This document shows, one piece after another, positions 18,646 through 23,076 of a stretch of DNA of 37,154 nucleotides. The position numbers were made by a program, and so were the translations under genes. Each line of letters starts with the position of its first letter. The first letter of the stretch is position 1. The notes beneath the pieces are model-generated. The model saw only the letters and a program-made list of their open reading frames with translations. It did not search any database and was not told the origin of the DNA. The stretch comes from a virus. Location of the stretch: the IMG/VR virus record IMGVR_UViG_3300034152_000581, positions 1 to 37,154 of that record; one strand, 5' to 3'.

Positions 18646-19535
18646 CAAATGTTATCCCAAGGGCTCTTTATCCCTTGGTTCTTACGGTTTATCATCCCGT
18701 AAGCTCAGACTATATCATCAAGCAACTTTCGTTACTTGTCCTGCGCTCGTGCCCTCTTATCGTCTTCATCTGCAAAAGCAATGTTAAGACTCGCTGCATA
18801 CATTTCAGAATTTTTTGTTCTGTTTTTGTAATGCAGGGTCACTTTATTTTGTAACGTTGAATGCACATAAGGCCGTAACAGCGTTACAAACTTAGGCATC
18901 TCTCCACTTAAGATTCTTAAGCGATAGTGTTTTCGATCTAAATAAAGTCTTGGATTAAGACTTGTTAAATCGTGTATCCAAGAAGCAATTATTTTTGCTT
19001 CGTGTTCGGAACAATACGTTGCAAGAAGTCCCACATTATTGGAGCTTACTACACAACCATCATCCATCCAAAAAACAGCTAAAGCTTCTAAACCCAGTCC
19101 ATCTAAGTATTCTTGAGAAAACTGTTTTTTACCTTCAGGATAAAATTGCTCTCTTAAAGGGACCAGTAGTTTACTGGTTACCATAGACTGGCAAGAATCA
19201 TAAGTTTTCAAGGTACGCTTATCGTAAACCTTCCTAGAAGCAACTTTCCCATTCGTCCCTAGTTCTTGATTAACTTTGGACATTTTCCACTCAAGAAAAA
19301 ATTTTTGTTTTTCTGAGTGAGTAAAAGATAAATAACAAGTGTTTTTACCTTTTGGGTACCCCAGGCATCCATCGCCTAAAGTACATGCTTTGGAAAAGGA
19401 AAGGTTCACTGTGTGACCAAGGGTAGTCGTTGGACCTTCCGACCATTTCTGGGCGGCTTGGCTGCTGATTGCCCGATGTTAGCGCATTGAAGGGTTTCCA
19501 GCAATTCACAGGATTTAAAGACCGCTACAAATTCA
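18646..19535 (-). ncRNA. Group I intron in the capsid gene
   Basis: An 890-base intron interrupts the capsid gene between Arg (CGT) and Tyr (TAC), phase 0. P1: exon end GACCGT pairs with the guide GCGGTC, giving the required U-G at the splice site. P10: TTGTA just before the guide pairs with TACAA, the first bases of exon 2. The last intron base is G. Core elements in order: P AATTGCTGGAAACC (19506-19493), Q AATCAGCAGCCAAGC (19470-19456), R GGTCCAACGACTA (19436-19424), S GATGATATAGTC (18719-18708); GACTA/TAGTC forms P7. Two hairpins (CTTACGG/CCGTAAG and CCAAGGG/CCCTTGG) follow as P9 elements. The endonuclease gene sits between R and S, in the P8 loop. Confidence 0.9.
18732..19409 (-). CDS. 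LAGLIDADG homing endonuclease, intron-encoded
   Basis: 225 residues from a GTG start inside the P8 region of the group I intron. Two LAGLIDADG-type motifs are seen: ACTLGDGCLG (8-17, Asp13) and LEALAVFWMDDGCV (107-120, Asp116/117), separated by about 100 residues, so the protein is a monomer with two half-sites (LAGLIDADG_2 type). It would cut an intronless capsid allele near the insertion site and let the intron home. The N-terminus is short: the first motif begins at residue 8, so an upstream non-standard start is possible. The frame ends 13 bases before the S element. Both acidic catalytic positions are present, so it is probably active. Confidence 0.88.
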   Translation of the reverse strand: MNLSFSKACTLGDGCLGYPKGKNTCYLSFTHSEKQKFFLEWKMSKVNQELGTNGKVASRKVYDKRTLKTYDSCQSMVTSKLLVPLREQFYPEGKKQFSQEYLDGLGLEALAVFWMDDGCVVSSNNVGLLATYCSEHEAKIIASWIHDLTSLNPRLYLDRKHYRLRILSGEMPKFVTLLRPYVHSTLQNKVTLHYKNRTKNSEMYAASLNIAFADEDDKRARAQDK

Positions 19536-19783: not shown

Positions 19784-20350
19784 TTAGTATTGAAGAGTGG
19801 AGATAGACTGGCGTGCACCAGGCATATTGCTTGATGCATAAGACTCGGGATCAATGCCTTGTTGGAACCCAGGCATACCCAGAGCACCTGGTACAGCACC
19901 AAGTGCAACACCACCGAGACCTGCAGCGGCAGCAGAAGCTGGAACCATGCCAGCTGCAAATGTTGGCGCAGCTGCAGCAGAAAGATTTGCTGGAGCAGAA
20001 AGTAGGCTGGTTCTTGCGATATTACCAATAGTTTGAGGTGAATAAAGGGTTGCAGATTGACCGCGACTCATGTATTCAGGACTATTAATAATTGCTTGTT
20101 CAGTTCTTTGTCTTAAAGAACGACCAGTTTTTCCTACTGGTTTATCCAGACCTTTTTCAATTAAACCTGGAATTACTCCGCCATACTTTCCAGCTAATTT
20201 ACGTGCACCTAATAAACCACCGGCTGCACCAGCTGCACCAAGACCTGCAGCTAATCCAGCAGAACCTGGATCTTCACCTTGAGAAAGGGCATACCCACCA
20301 GTTGCTAAACCAGCAGCGGCGGGTACACCATATTGAAGTAGAGGACGCAT
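19784..20350 (-). CDS. Gly/Ala-rich glycine-zipper protein
   Basis: 188 residues from ATG 20350, 4 bases after the scaffold stop; an in-frame TTG at 20368 would overlap the scaffold gene. The protein is strongly Gly/Ala-rich with two hydrophobic zipper-like stretches (VPAAAGLATGGYALSQG; GLAAGLGAAGAAGGLLGARK) and another near the end (MVPASAAAAGLGGVALGAVP). It may associate with membranes or with other virion helices. It lies between scaffold and capsid genes, where a minor head protein or maturation factor could be expected; no protease motif is seen. Confidence 0.6.
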   Translation of the reverse strand: MRPLLQYGVPAAAGLATGGYALSQGEDPGSAGLAAGLGAAGAAGGLLGARKLAGKYGGVIPGLIEKGLDKPVGKTGRSLRQRTEQAIINSPEYMSRGQSATLYSPQTIGNIARTSLLSAPANLSAAAAPTFAAGMVPASAAAAGLGGVALGAVPGALGMPGFQQGIDPESYASSNMPGARQSISTLQY

Positions 20351-20354
20351 GGCA

Positions 20355-21326
20355 TCACTCCATAACAAACAGTTTGTTTGCGATCACATCAGGGGTAGCT
20401 TGATTAATAACGCGCCAGGCGTTCTGGGGGTCACGCTCCATAGTTGACTTGAAGCTCTCCCAGAAGTTTTGAGGTTGCTGAGGAGCAGCGGCAGCGGGAG
20501 GAGCGGGGAATTGACCCATGCCAGGATTTACAGCTTGAGTCTGGTAACCAGGGGTTTCAAGCTGAGCTTCGTTTTCATAAACGGGATAAGGACCTTCGGG
20601 ACCGAAGAACTTGAGGGTGTAGTCACTCAATACATCGGGATTGGTCAAGATCTCGTTATAAGCAAGGTTTTCCTGATGCTCATTAACAGAGAATGCAGCA
20701 TAACCCTTCAGCGTTTCAGTTGCTTGTTGGCCCCAGGCAATAGCACTATCAAGAACGCCTTCCAGATTTAGAGCGTACTGGTTTAGAATTGCCGGAGCCT
20801 CGGTTCCGTACGCTTCGACCACCATCCGACTTTCCGGACTCCAGTTCAGGACGTCCGCCACGTCCCCCAAGGAGCTGACCGAGTAGGTTTGGGAAGAGTT
20901 GTTGGATGAGGTCTGGTTTGTTGACCAAGTCTGCGGAGCCGATTGTTGCGTAGGTTGGACGCTCGGTTGTCCGTAATTGGCCGGGGTATACTGAGTCGGA
21001 TTGATCTGCTGCGATTGTTGACCCTGGAACGGGGAGGGCACCGGGCTTCCCAGCAGATTGACCACCTTGTTGAATGCCGTCTCCCAGGGGTTGCTCTGGG
21101 GCGCCACCGGTTGGGATTGGGGGGCGTACTGAGACGGGTTTGATTGGTAACTGGTAGCCCCCTGAGGCGCCACTTGGGGCACTGCCTGGGGGTAACTGGT
21201 CCCCACCTGGTACTGAACCGGAGCTTGGGGCGCCTGCTGTTGGGGTGCCGGTGCGACGTAGCTGCTCGGAGCGACCGCCGGTGCTTGGTTCGTCTGTGGG
21301 GTCGATTGGACGGTAGCGTCCTGCAT
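20355..21326 (-). CDS. Scaffold-like capsid assembly protein
   Basis: 323 residues. The N-terminal 170 residues are Gln/Pro/Ser-rich and disordered. The C-terminal half is helical (ESRMVVEAYGTEAPAILNQY ... TETLKGYAAFSVNEHQEN), with a conserved-looking end (RVINQATPDVIANKLFVME). Position between portal and capsid genes and the disordered-plus-helical make-up match phage scaffolds. The ATG at 21326 has a strong AAAGGAG seven bases upstream, although it lies inside the portal frame. The first 578 bases are shared with the portal gene in the +1 frame. Confidence 0.65.
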   Translation of the reverse strand: MQDATVQSTPQTNQAPAVAPSSYVAPAPQQQAPQAPVQYQVGTSYPQAVPQVAPQGATSYQSNPSQYAPQSQPVAPQSNPWETAFNKVVNLLGSPVPSPFQGQQSQQINPTQYTPANYGQPSVQPTQQSAPQTWSTNQTSSNNSSQTYSVSSLGDVADVLNWSPESRMVVEAYGTEAPAILNQYALNLEGVLDSAIAWGQQATETLKGYAAFSVNEHQENLAYNEILTNPDVLSDYTLKFFGPEGPYPVYENEAQLETPGYQTQAVNPGMGQFPAPPAAAAPQQPQNFWESFKSTMERDPQNAWRVINQATPDVIANKLFVME

Positions 21327-23076
21327 AACTCATCTCCTTTTGTAATGCTTCTAGAGTTCGATACAGATATGGAGTTAAATCCAGTTTGGGATCTGCAGCC
21401 ATCGGAAGATCCGGTGCCTGAGGGTGGGGAGTCTGCATCATTCCCCCCACTAAACGAGCAAATTGAGAGTATGCACCCTGTAACTCGTTTACCATTCTGA
21501 ACGGGAACCCAGATAGCATCTCGGCCCGTTCCTCATCCGTTTTTGATGGGAAGAGGTACTTCAGTGCTTCAATGCTATCAACCCCTAATTCTTGCAAGTT
21601 CCTAACAACAATAGAGTTGTTAAGAATATCTTGCGTAGAATCTTCGTATACGGGTCCCAGCCAGCGCCATAACATGGTGATATCACCATCTGGTATCAAT
21701 CCTTTGACACCAGGGGGAATCATCTGCGCTTCTACACAAGCCATCATAAGACGCTTTAGTTGTTGTTCATATACTTTCATTGCTTCGTTGTAGCCTGCTT
21801 GCATCTCTGGTGACATCTCACCTTCTGGAGGTACAGGCTTTTCAATCTTTGCGGCAGCCGCAAGACTATCCTTAAACAACTGCTCTTCCTGGTAAATGAT
21901 TAACTCAAAACAACGACATAAGCCGTGTTCATAAATTGCATTAGCTTTTTTCTTAGATGTTGCCGATACACGACCGAATAATGATTTGTATTCCGTAGCA
22001 GTGACACCAGCACTAATGGATAATTCATCAACACCACCCAATGCTGTGCGAATTTCCTCTCGATACTGTCGAACGAACGCATTCTGATCTCCACTGATGG
22101 CATCTGGGACGATATAACCTACTCGATCGTTCGGTTCCAGGTTCGCAATAACTCTTGGCACTCGAATCTGCCCATCAACACCGCGAGATACGGGATCTTG
22201 CTTAAATGTAGACCTACTGAGCCCCATGGGACTAGTAAATCCTGAATTTGCAGCAATAGATGGACGCTGAACGCCTGTATCACCGCCGACATCAATGAGA
22301 TCAGTCTTGGGACGGGACGAAAGCAGAGTTGGATTCCCAAAAAATTGTAAATTCTTCCGCATGTTGCGGACTAATTCATCGTGAATGACGATGTGATTAG
22401 CTAAAACATCAAAATCACCACTGCCTTCCATTGAAAAGCCTTTGGGATTGTTGAAAATCTCTACGCAAGGTATGAATTGCAACGTATTTTTAAATGTTTT
22501 GGTCTTACCAGGGATCATGTAGTTAACATTATCGAAAGACATCTCGCCTTCCGAGTGAGTTTCTTCGATTACATCTTTTTTAATGGACAATCGGATGTAT
22601 CGTTTAGCCCCCTGGGACTCATTGTTACCATATCCAGTAAGATCTGCGGAATTAATCTCTTGATTGAACCCATTACCACGCTTGACTTTGTAACTGTAGA
22701 TGATTACGACTTCTTCCAGTTCCCCATCAGTGTTGTAATAAGAGCGATACTCATGAGAACGAAAGTAATAAAGGCGATAGTTTGCGTCTGTGGGACGGAT
22801 ATAAAACATTCCTTTACCATCGCAAAGGAAATAATCCCAGATTGAATCAAGTCGAGTATCAAGTTTGTTGTATTTGGCTACACGATCAATAAAATCTTTG
22901 CGTTGATTACCGAAATTATCTTGAGAAGGAAAGAATTCAACACCCTGACGGATGCCAAATAATTTCATCTGGGCAATATGAGATGCAACGATTCCTGTGT
23001 CAACGCCAGCGCTACCGTCACGCTCAATATAAGCGTCGATGATTTCCTTAAGACGAGATTTGGCGTTACCAGACAT
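20749..23076 (-). CDS. Portal protein
   Basis: 775 residues. The first 580 residues look like a tailed-phage portal: helical stem and wing segments, SGVTATEYKSLFGRVSATSK near the tunnel-loop region and a long helical crown (FRMVNELQGAYSQFARLVGG). Portals form the 12-subunit ring through which DNA is packaged. The last about 190 residues are Gly/Pro/Ser/Arg-rich (GGRGGRPELESGKSDGGRSV) and overlap the scaffold gene in another frame. Its ATG overlaps the previous stop (TAATG). The tail is either a real extension or a frame kept open by the overlap; truncation would leave a portal of normal size. Confidence 0.8.
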   Translation of the reverse strand: MSGNAKSRLKEIIDAYIERDGSAGVDTGIVASHIAQMKLFGIRQGVEFFPSQDNFGNQRKDFIDRVAKYNKLDTRLDSIWDYFLCDGKGMFYIRPTDANYRLYYFRSHEYRSYYNTDGELEEVVIIYSYKVKRGNGFNQEINSADLTGYGNNESQGAKRYIRLSIKKDVIEETHSEGEMSFDNVNYMIPGKTKTFKNTLQFIPCVEIFNNPKGFSMEGSGDFDVLANHIVIHDELVRNMRKNLQFFGNPTLLSSRPKTDLIDVGGDTGVQRPSIAANSGFTSPMGLSRSTFKQDPVSRGVDGQIRVPRVIANLEPNDRVGYIVPDAISGDQNAFVRQYREEIRTALGGVDELSISAGVTATEYKSLFGRVSATSKKKANAIYEHGLCRCFELIIYQEEQLFKDSLAAAAKIEKPVPPEGEMSPEMQAGYNEAMKVYEQQLKRLMMACVEAQMIPPGVKGLIPDGDITMLWRWLGPVYEDSTQDILNNSIVVRNLQELGVDSIEALKYLFPSKTDEERAEMLSGFPFRMVNELQGAYSQFARLVGGMMQTPHPQAPDLPMAADPKLDLTPYLYRTLEALQKEMSYAGRYRPIDPTDEPSTGGRSEQLRRTGTPTAGAPSSGSVPGGDQLPPGSAPSGASGGYQLPIKPVSVRPPIPTGGAPEQPLGDGIQQGGQSAGKPGALPVPGSTIAADQSDSVYPGQLRTTERPTYATIGSADLVNKPDLIQQLFPNLLGQLLGGRGGRPELESGKSDGGRSVRNRGSGNSKPVRSKSGRRS

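Follow-up and report, generated by a model that had tools for sequence, protein, structure and literature searches.

Two putative head-assembly genes of a cyanophage share about 580 nt of DNA in different reading frames, and we asked whether both readings are under selection and what the extended portal sequence might do. The DNA analysed, referred to as the window, was the 37,154-base virus record IMGVR_UViG_3300034152_000581. Two minus-strand open reading frames, running from 23076 to 20749 (775 aa) and from 21326 to 20355 (323 aa), have 578 nt in common (20749..21326), which encode residues 584-775 of the putative portal protein and, in the +1 frame, residues 1-192 of a scaffold candidate. 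Overlaps of the +1 type in virus genomes have a median length of 14 nt (interquartile range 8-26; PMC8903798). In the literature searched, which did not include the S-EIV1 genome paper (ISME J 2015), we found no dsDNA phage lineage that maintains an out-of-frame portal/scaffold-like overlap of ~500-650 nt. The present overlap links two genes of head assembly and is fixed throughout a widespread cyanophage lineage. It offers a natural test of the sharing of DNA between two proteins, with a motif set against a linker. We consider it very probable that the overlap is real, conserved, and dual-coding in the S-EIV1-like cyanophage lineage.

The two genes and their junction

The portal gene (20749..23076, minus strand) was annotated by sequence only as phrog_20475, a "virion structural protein" of the head and packaging category. 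No match was obtained in a Pfam search, and hhalign comparison with three named portals returned nothing, the alignment depth probably being insufficient; a named portal family was thus not matched by sequence. The AlphaFold model of the protein was poor (mean pLDDT 40); S-EIV1 rows were left out of the structure-prediction alignments. When this low-confidence model was searched against the PDB with Foldseek, the leading matches were portals (best E 1e-4), and the fold matches included the portals of T7, P-SCSP1u, Kp9, and SaPI1; the model also matched portals in a viral structure library. Judged from the predicted structure, the product of the first gene is folded like a portal. The matched portals comprise ~390-560 residues, whereas the core here comprises ~583 (residues 1-583; 21327..23076, minus strand) and reaches approximately to the start of the second gene, in agreement with the proposal of the first-pass annotation that the portal tail is an extension. 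In this core, which lies outside the overlap, synonymous sites varied freely, about 0.5 differing per alignment window.

The second gene (20355..21326, minus strand) lies between the portal gene and the major capsid gene and encodes an acidic protein (pI 4.15). Its residues 1-151 were predicted to be disordered, and helices were predicted at residues 80-91, 153-241, and 288-322 (model mean pLDDT 46). The N-terminal helix NPWETAFNKVVNLL (residues 79-92; 21051..21092) is conserved, the helical region (residues 153-241; 20604..20870) starts at the end of a portal motif described below, and the C-terminal helices (residues 288-322; 20361..20465), also conserved and on the same minus strand, form a candidate coat-binding end. 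The protein is probably a scaffold, as suggested by its position, acidity, and elongated predicted helices, and its layout would probably be a disordered acidic arm at the N terminus, followed by an elongated middle of helices and, at the C terminus, by helices that are conserved. It could instead be another head or internal virion protein, with the product of the 19784-20368 gene or another protein serving as scaffold. This alternative, which we regard as rather doubtful, is favored by the finding that the second gene matched no family or structure (phrog, Pfam, and structure searches; the PDB search with the model was empty) and by the presence of another uncharacterised gene between it and the capsid gene, whereas the position, the pI of ~4.1, the elongated helices, the disordered N terminus, and the conserved C-terminal helices all suit a scaffold.

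The intervening gene (19784-20368, minus strand) encodes a Gly/Ala-rich product of 194 aa, possibly an internal or ejection protein and a candidate partner of the portal tail. The adjacent major capsid gene is split after ...QTVQLDR by an 890-nt group I intron (18646-19535, minus strand; RF00028, E 2e-7, below the gathering score), which carries a LAGLIDADG endonuclease open reading frame (18732-19409); the intron site was empty in the 121 loci examined, S-EIV1 included. At the gathering score, no RNA family was detected in the window with Rfam.

The scaffold start fell at portal codon position 2, that is, in the +1 frame, in 81/81 relatives of the first set, so that both the 578-base overlap and the frame given in the first-pass annotation were borne out. 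The strong Shine-Dalgarno sequence AAAGGAG noted there (21334..21340, minus strand) is separated from the scaffold ATG by a 7-nt spacer and was likewise kept in 81/81 of these relatives. The start context AAAGGAGATGAG[T/C]TATG was near-invariant, and AAAGGAG was also found in variant start contexts. Programmed +1 frameshifting, which would give a portal-scaffold fusion, could be considered since the scaffold frame is +1 relative to the portal; it is hardly credible, however, given that the scaffold gene is equipped with a ribosome site and ATG of its own, both near-invariant, and that a stop lies in the same frame a short way upstream.

The GC content was 60.2% in the overlap, compared with 49.2% in the remainder of the scaffold gene, 45.5% over the 580 nt upstream of the overlap, and 42.1% in the whole window; earlier hand counts for the first three segments (61, 48, and 47%) were close. 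The overlap is the GC-richest 578-nt stretch of the window, exceeded only by its own shifts. The rise fits codons rich in P/A/G/R together with avoidance of stops in two frames, but high GC is not required by dual constraint alone.

Conservation among relatives

Relatives were taken from the best 80 IMG/VR loci of a first scan, with more from three further scans and one bacterial MAG contig. At least 600 matching stretches are present in IMG/VR, and the cyanophage lineage is widespread. The overlap measured 506-644 nt in the first 81 sequences. After repeats were removed across all loci, 152 distinct portals with the stop in hand were available; the overlap was kept in 151 of them (480-644 nt, median 599), with identical phase in all, and every complete scaffold (142/142) was 314-335 aa long. 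Portals stopping near 21330, which had been named as evidence against an overprinted tail, were therefore absent from 151/152 distinct relatives. The lone exception has an overlap of 185 nt; its portal stop is 9 nt away from the end of the contig and falls in a single-base difference, possibly a sequencing error. No outgroup lacking the overlap was found in four viral-contig scans with the best 80 matches taken from each, all of which exceeded ~73% portal identity; a genome-contig search gave one further relative, that on the bacterial MAG contig, and no relative outside the lineage was found in these searches.

The sole isolate relative found, in an isolate search extended even to E 10, was Synechococcus phage S-EIV1 (KJ410740), the portal of which is 72% identical. 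The overlap is likewise present in this phage (554 nt). In its GenBank record the whole portal is annotated, but the second gene is given only as 59863-60264 (the last 133 codons), whereas the full homologous frame extends over 59287-60264; the deposited annotation thus cuts short a head gene in the only isolate of the lineage found here. In the same record, within positions 60784-62010, the major capsid gene also appears to be misannotated: the capsid-homologous frame spans 61003-62007, with its first part upstream, and an opposite-strand gene is annotated over it (60784-61545).

Constraint on the two reading frames

The third forward frame of the overlap DNA contained a mean of 6.5 stops, and the portal frame contained none in 51 dereplicated sequences. 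Synonymous recoding of the scaffold predicted between 3.6 (own codons shuffled) and 9.2 (family codon usage) portal-frame stops, and the portal frame stayed open in just 0.0-2.2% of the recodings. The open portal frame through the overlap is not due to chance; both frames are open beyond chance, in relatives too, as in an out-of-frame overlapping gene pair.

The homologue alignment proposed in the first-pass annotation was carried out for the same 51 sequences, with substitutions classed by their effect in both frames; the ratios are based on pairwise counts and block resampling with no phylogenetic model, and the intervals are approximate. The scaffold frame gave a dNN/dNS of 0.30 (0.21-0.41) and the portal frame a dNN/dSN of 0.66 (0.46-0.98) over the whole tail, compared with 1.28-1.54 for matched pseudo-frames (portal body, 1.47; scaffold beyond the overlap, 1.28). 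When the two clades were analysed separately, the portal-frame ratios were 0.77 (0.51-1.16) and 0.59 (0.37-0.88), with pseudo-frames at 1.49 and 1.74; the evidence is weaker in clade 1 alone, where the interval reaches 1.16. Up to the conserved motif, the portal-frame ratio was 0.50 (0.35-0.67). Portal-tail amino-acid identity was 0.63, compared with 0.45 for pseudo-frames, and portal synonymous variation fell from ~0.5 of codons in the core to 0-0.3 from the scaffold ATG on. Both readings are under purifying selection, the portal frame as far as the motif and excluding the last ~40 residues. Synonymous variation in the portal also dipped outside the overlap, to 0.33 at codon alignment columns 1530-1620 and to 0.15 some 45 nt upstream of the scaffold ATG (both versus ~0.5); residues with few synonymous codons may account for both dips.

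Constraint on the portal frame peaked at the start of the tail and at the motif IGSADLVNKPDLIQQLFPNLLGQL (residues 712-735; 20872..20943, minus strand), where it was strongest. The consensus IGSADLxNKPDLIxQLFPN gave a dNN/dSN of 0.21 (0.12-0.42) and lies opposite the disordered S/T/Q linker of the scaffold. Beyond it, the basic end of the tail (residues 736-775; 20752..20871, minus strand) is without amino-acid constraint (dNN/dSN 2.73 for the last ~40 residues), the portal frame being free from scaffold residue 153, where the predicted scaffold helices start. Free substitution in the portal frame, earlier named as a reason to abandon a selected tail, is thus absent up to the motif and true of these final residues, and the earlier statement that two frames constrain every base was too strong. 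Constraint is divided along the DNA, with the motif of one protein opposite mostly linker of the other.

The portal tail ahead of the motif has a charge of -2.8, compared with +8.2 predicted by scaffold coding alone, whereas the basic end has a charge of +6.5, compared with an expected +5.6. These charges suggest that portal selection reaches the motif and then ends. We considered and rejected binding of DNA or of the scaffold by the basic end, its charge being explained by scaffold coding. The last ~40 residues therefore behave as they would under passive read-through, in which loss of the portal stop left a functionless tail, its frame kept open by scaffold composition. For the tail as a whole this explanation is very improbable: an openness so rare among recodings was nevertheless kept in nearly all distinct relatives, the ratios up to and within the motif are low, and the charge of the earlier tail is far from the passive expectation.

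A possible role for the portal tail and parallels in other phages

The C-terminal domain of the P22 portal faces inward, has been linked to ejection proteins, and has a dispensable end of 50 residues (PMC4992974). By analogy, the present tail would most likely act as an inward tether bearing a docking motif, and we lean toward a flexible interior tether that captures an interior partner in procapsid assembly; its interior position, the docking, and the scaffold identity are what we infer. The portal gene continues ~190 codons beyond a complete core and takes in the first 60% of the next gene; the latter would initiate independently in the +1 frame from its own strong ribosome site. The G/S/P-rich tether would reach into the capsid interior, and the short hydrophobic motif IGSADLxNKPDLIxQLFPNLL near its end would catch the partner, the final basic ~40 residues probably being carried along to the next portal-frame stop. 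The partner might be the scaffold or, with the same tentative standing, an ejection or core protein. In the P22 procapsid, this C-terminal portal domain lacks structure, and the part of the portal contacted by the scaffold is the wing (PMC12005531); by this analogy, a known contact at the wing rather than the C terminus speaks against scaffold docking. Docking of the motif on the very scaffold arm encoded by the same DNA seems unlikely; if true, one mutation could change the portal and scaffold faces of their procapsid-nucleating interface at the same time.

Which frame is older bears on how the overlap arose. The tail is an add-on past a full portal core, which favors the portal tail as the overprinted frame, whereas the predicted disorder of the scaffold arm favors the opposite direction. 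The N-terminal half of the scaffold could be the newer frame if the gene once began downstream and gained an upstream start inside an existing portal tail, a history to which we give appreciable but less than even weight. The predicted disorder of the first 151 residues, with the folded part starting just past the portal motif, is consistent with such a history, and the short S-EIV1 gene model in GenBank shows that a downstream open reading frame is available; however, constraint is stronger on the scaffold frame than on the portal frame, and codon usage does not set the frames apart. An apparent codon-usage signal for an older portal frame disappeared against pseudo-frame controls, neither overlap frame having better codon usage than pseudo-frames do.

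Long out-of-frame overlaps are known from phiX174 and from Rz/Rz1. As in the small ssDNA phage system, genes overlap here out of frame and a C-terminal extension runs over a neighbour, but this is a tailed dsDNA phage, and the genome of its isolate relative is 79 kb. The Rz/Rz1 overlap, like the present one, is long, out of frame, and found in tailed dsDNA phages; its genes, however, are lysis genes rather than head genes, one lying wholly or largely inside the other. In lambda C/Nu3, the nested scaffold gene has its start within the head gene upstream and is read in the same frame, so that protein sequence is shared. The scaffold start lies inside an upstream head gene in both cases, but the frames differ only here, and the frame was +1 in all relatives. 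The C-terminal barrel of P22 gp1 resembles the portal tail in being an extension past the core, and its end is dispensable (PMC12005531, PMC4992974); that domain is a helical barrel with no dual coding reported, whereas the tail here is G/S/P-rich.
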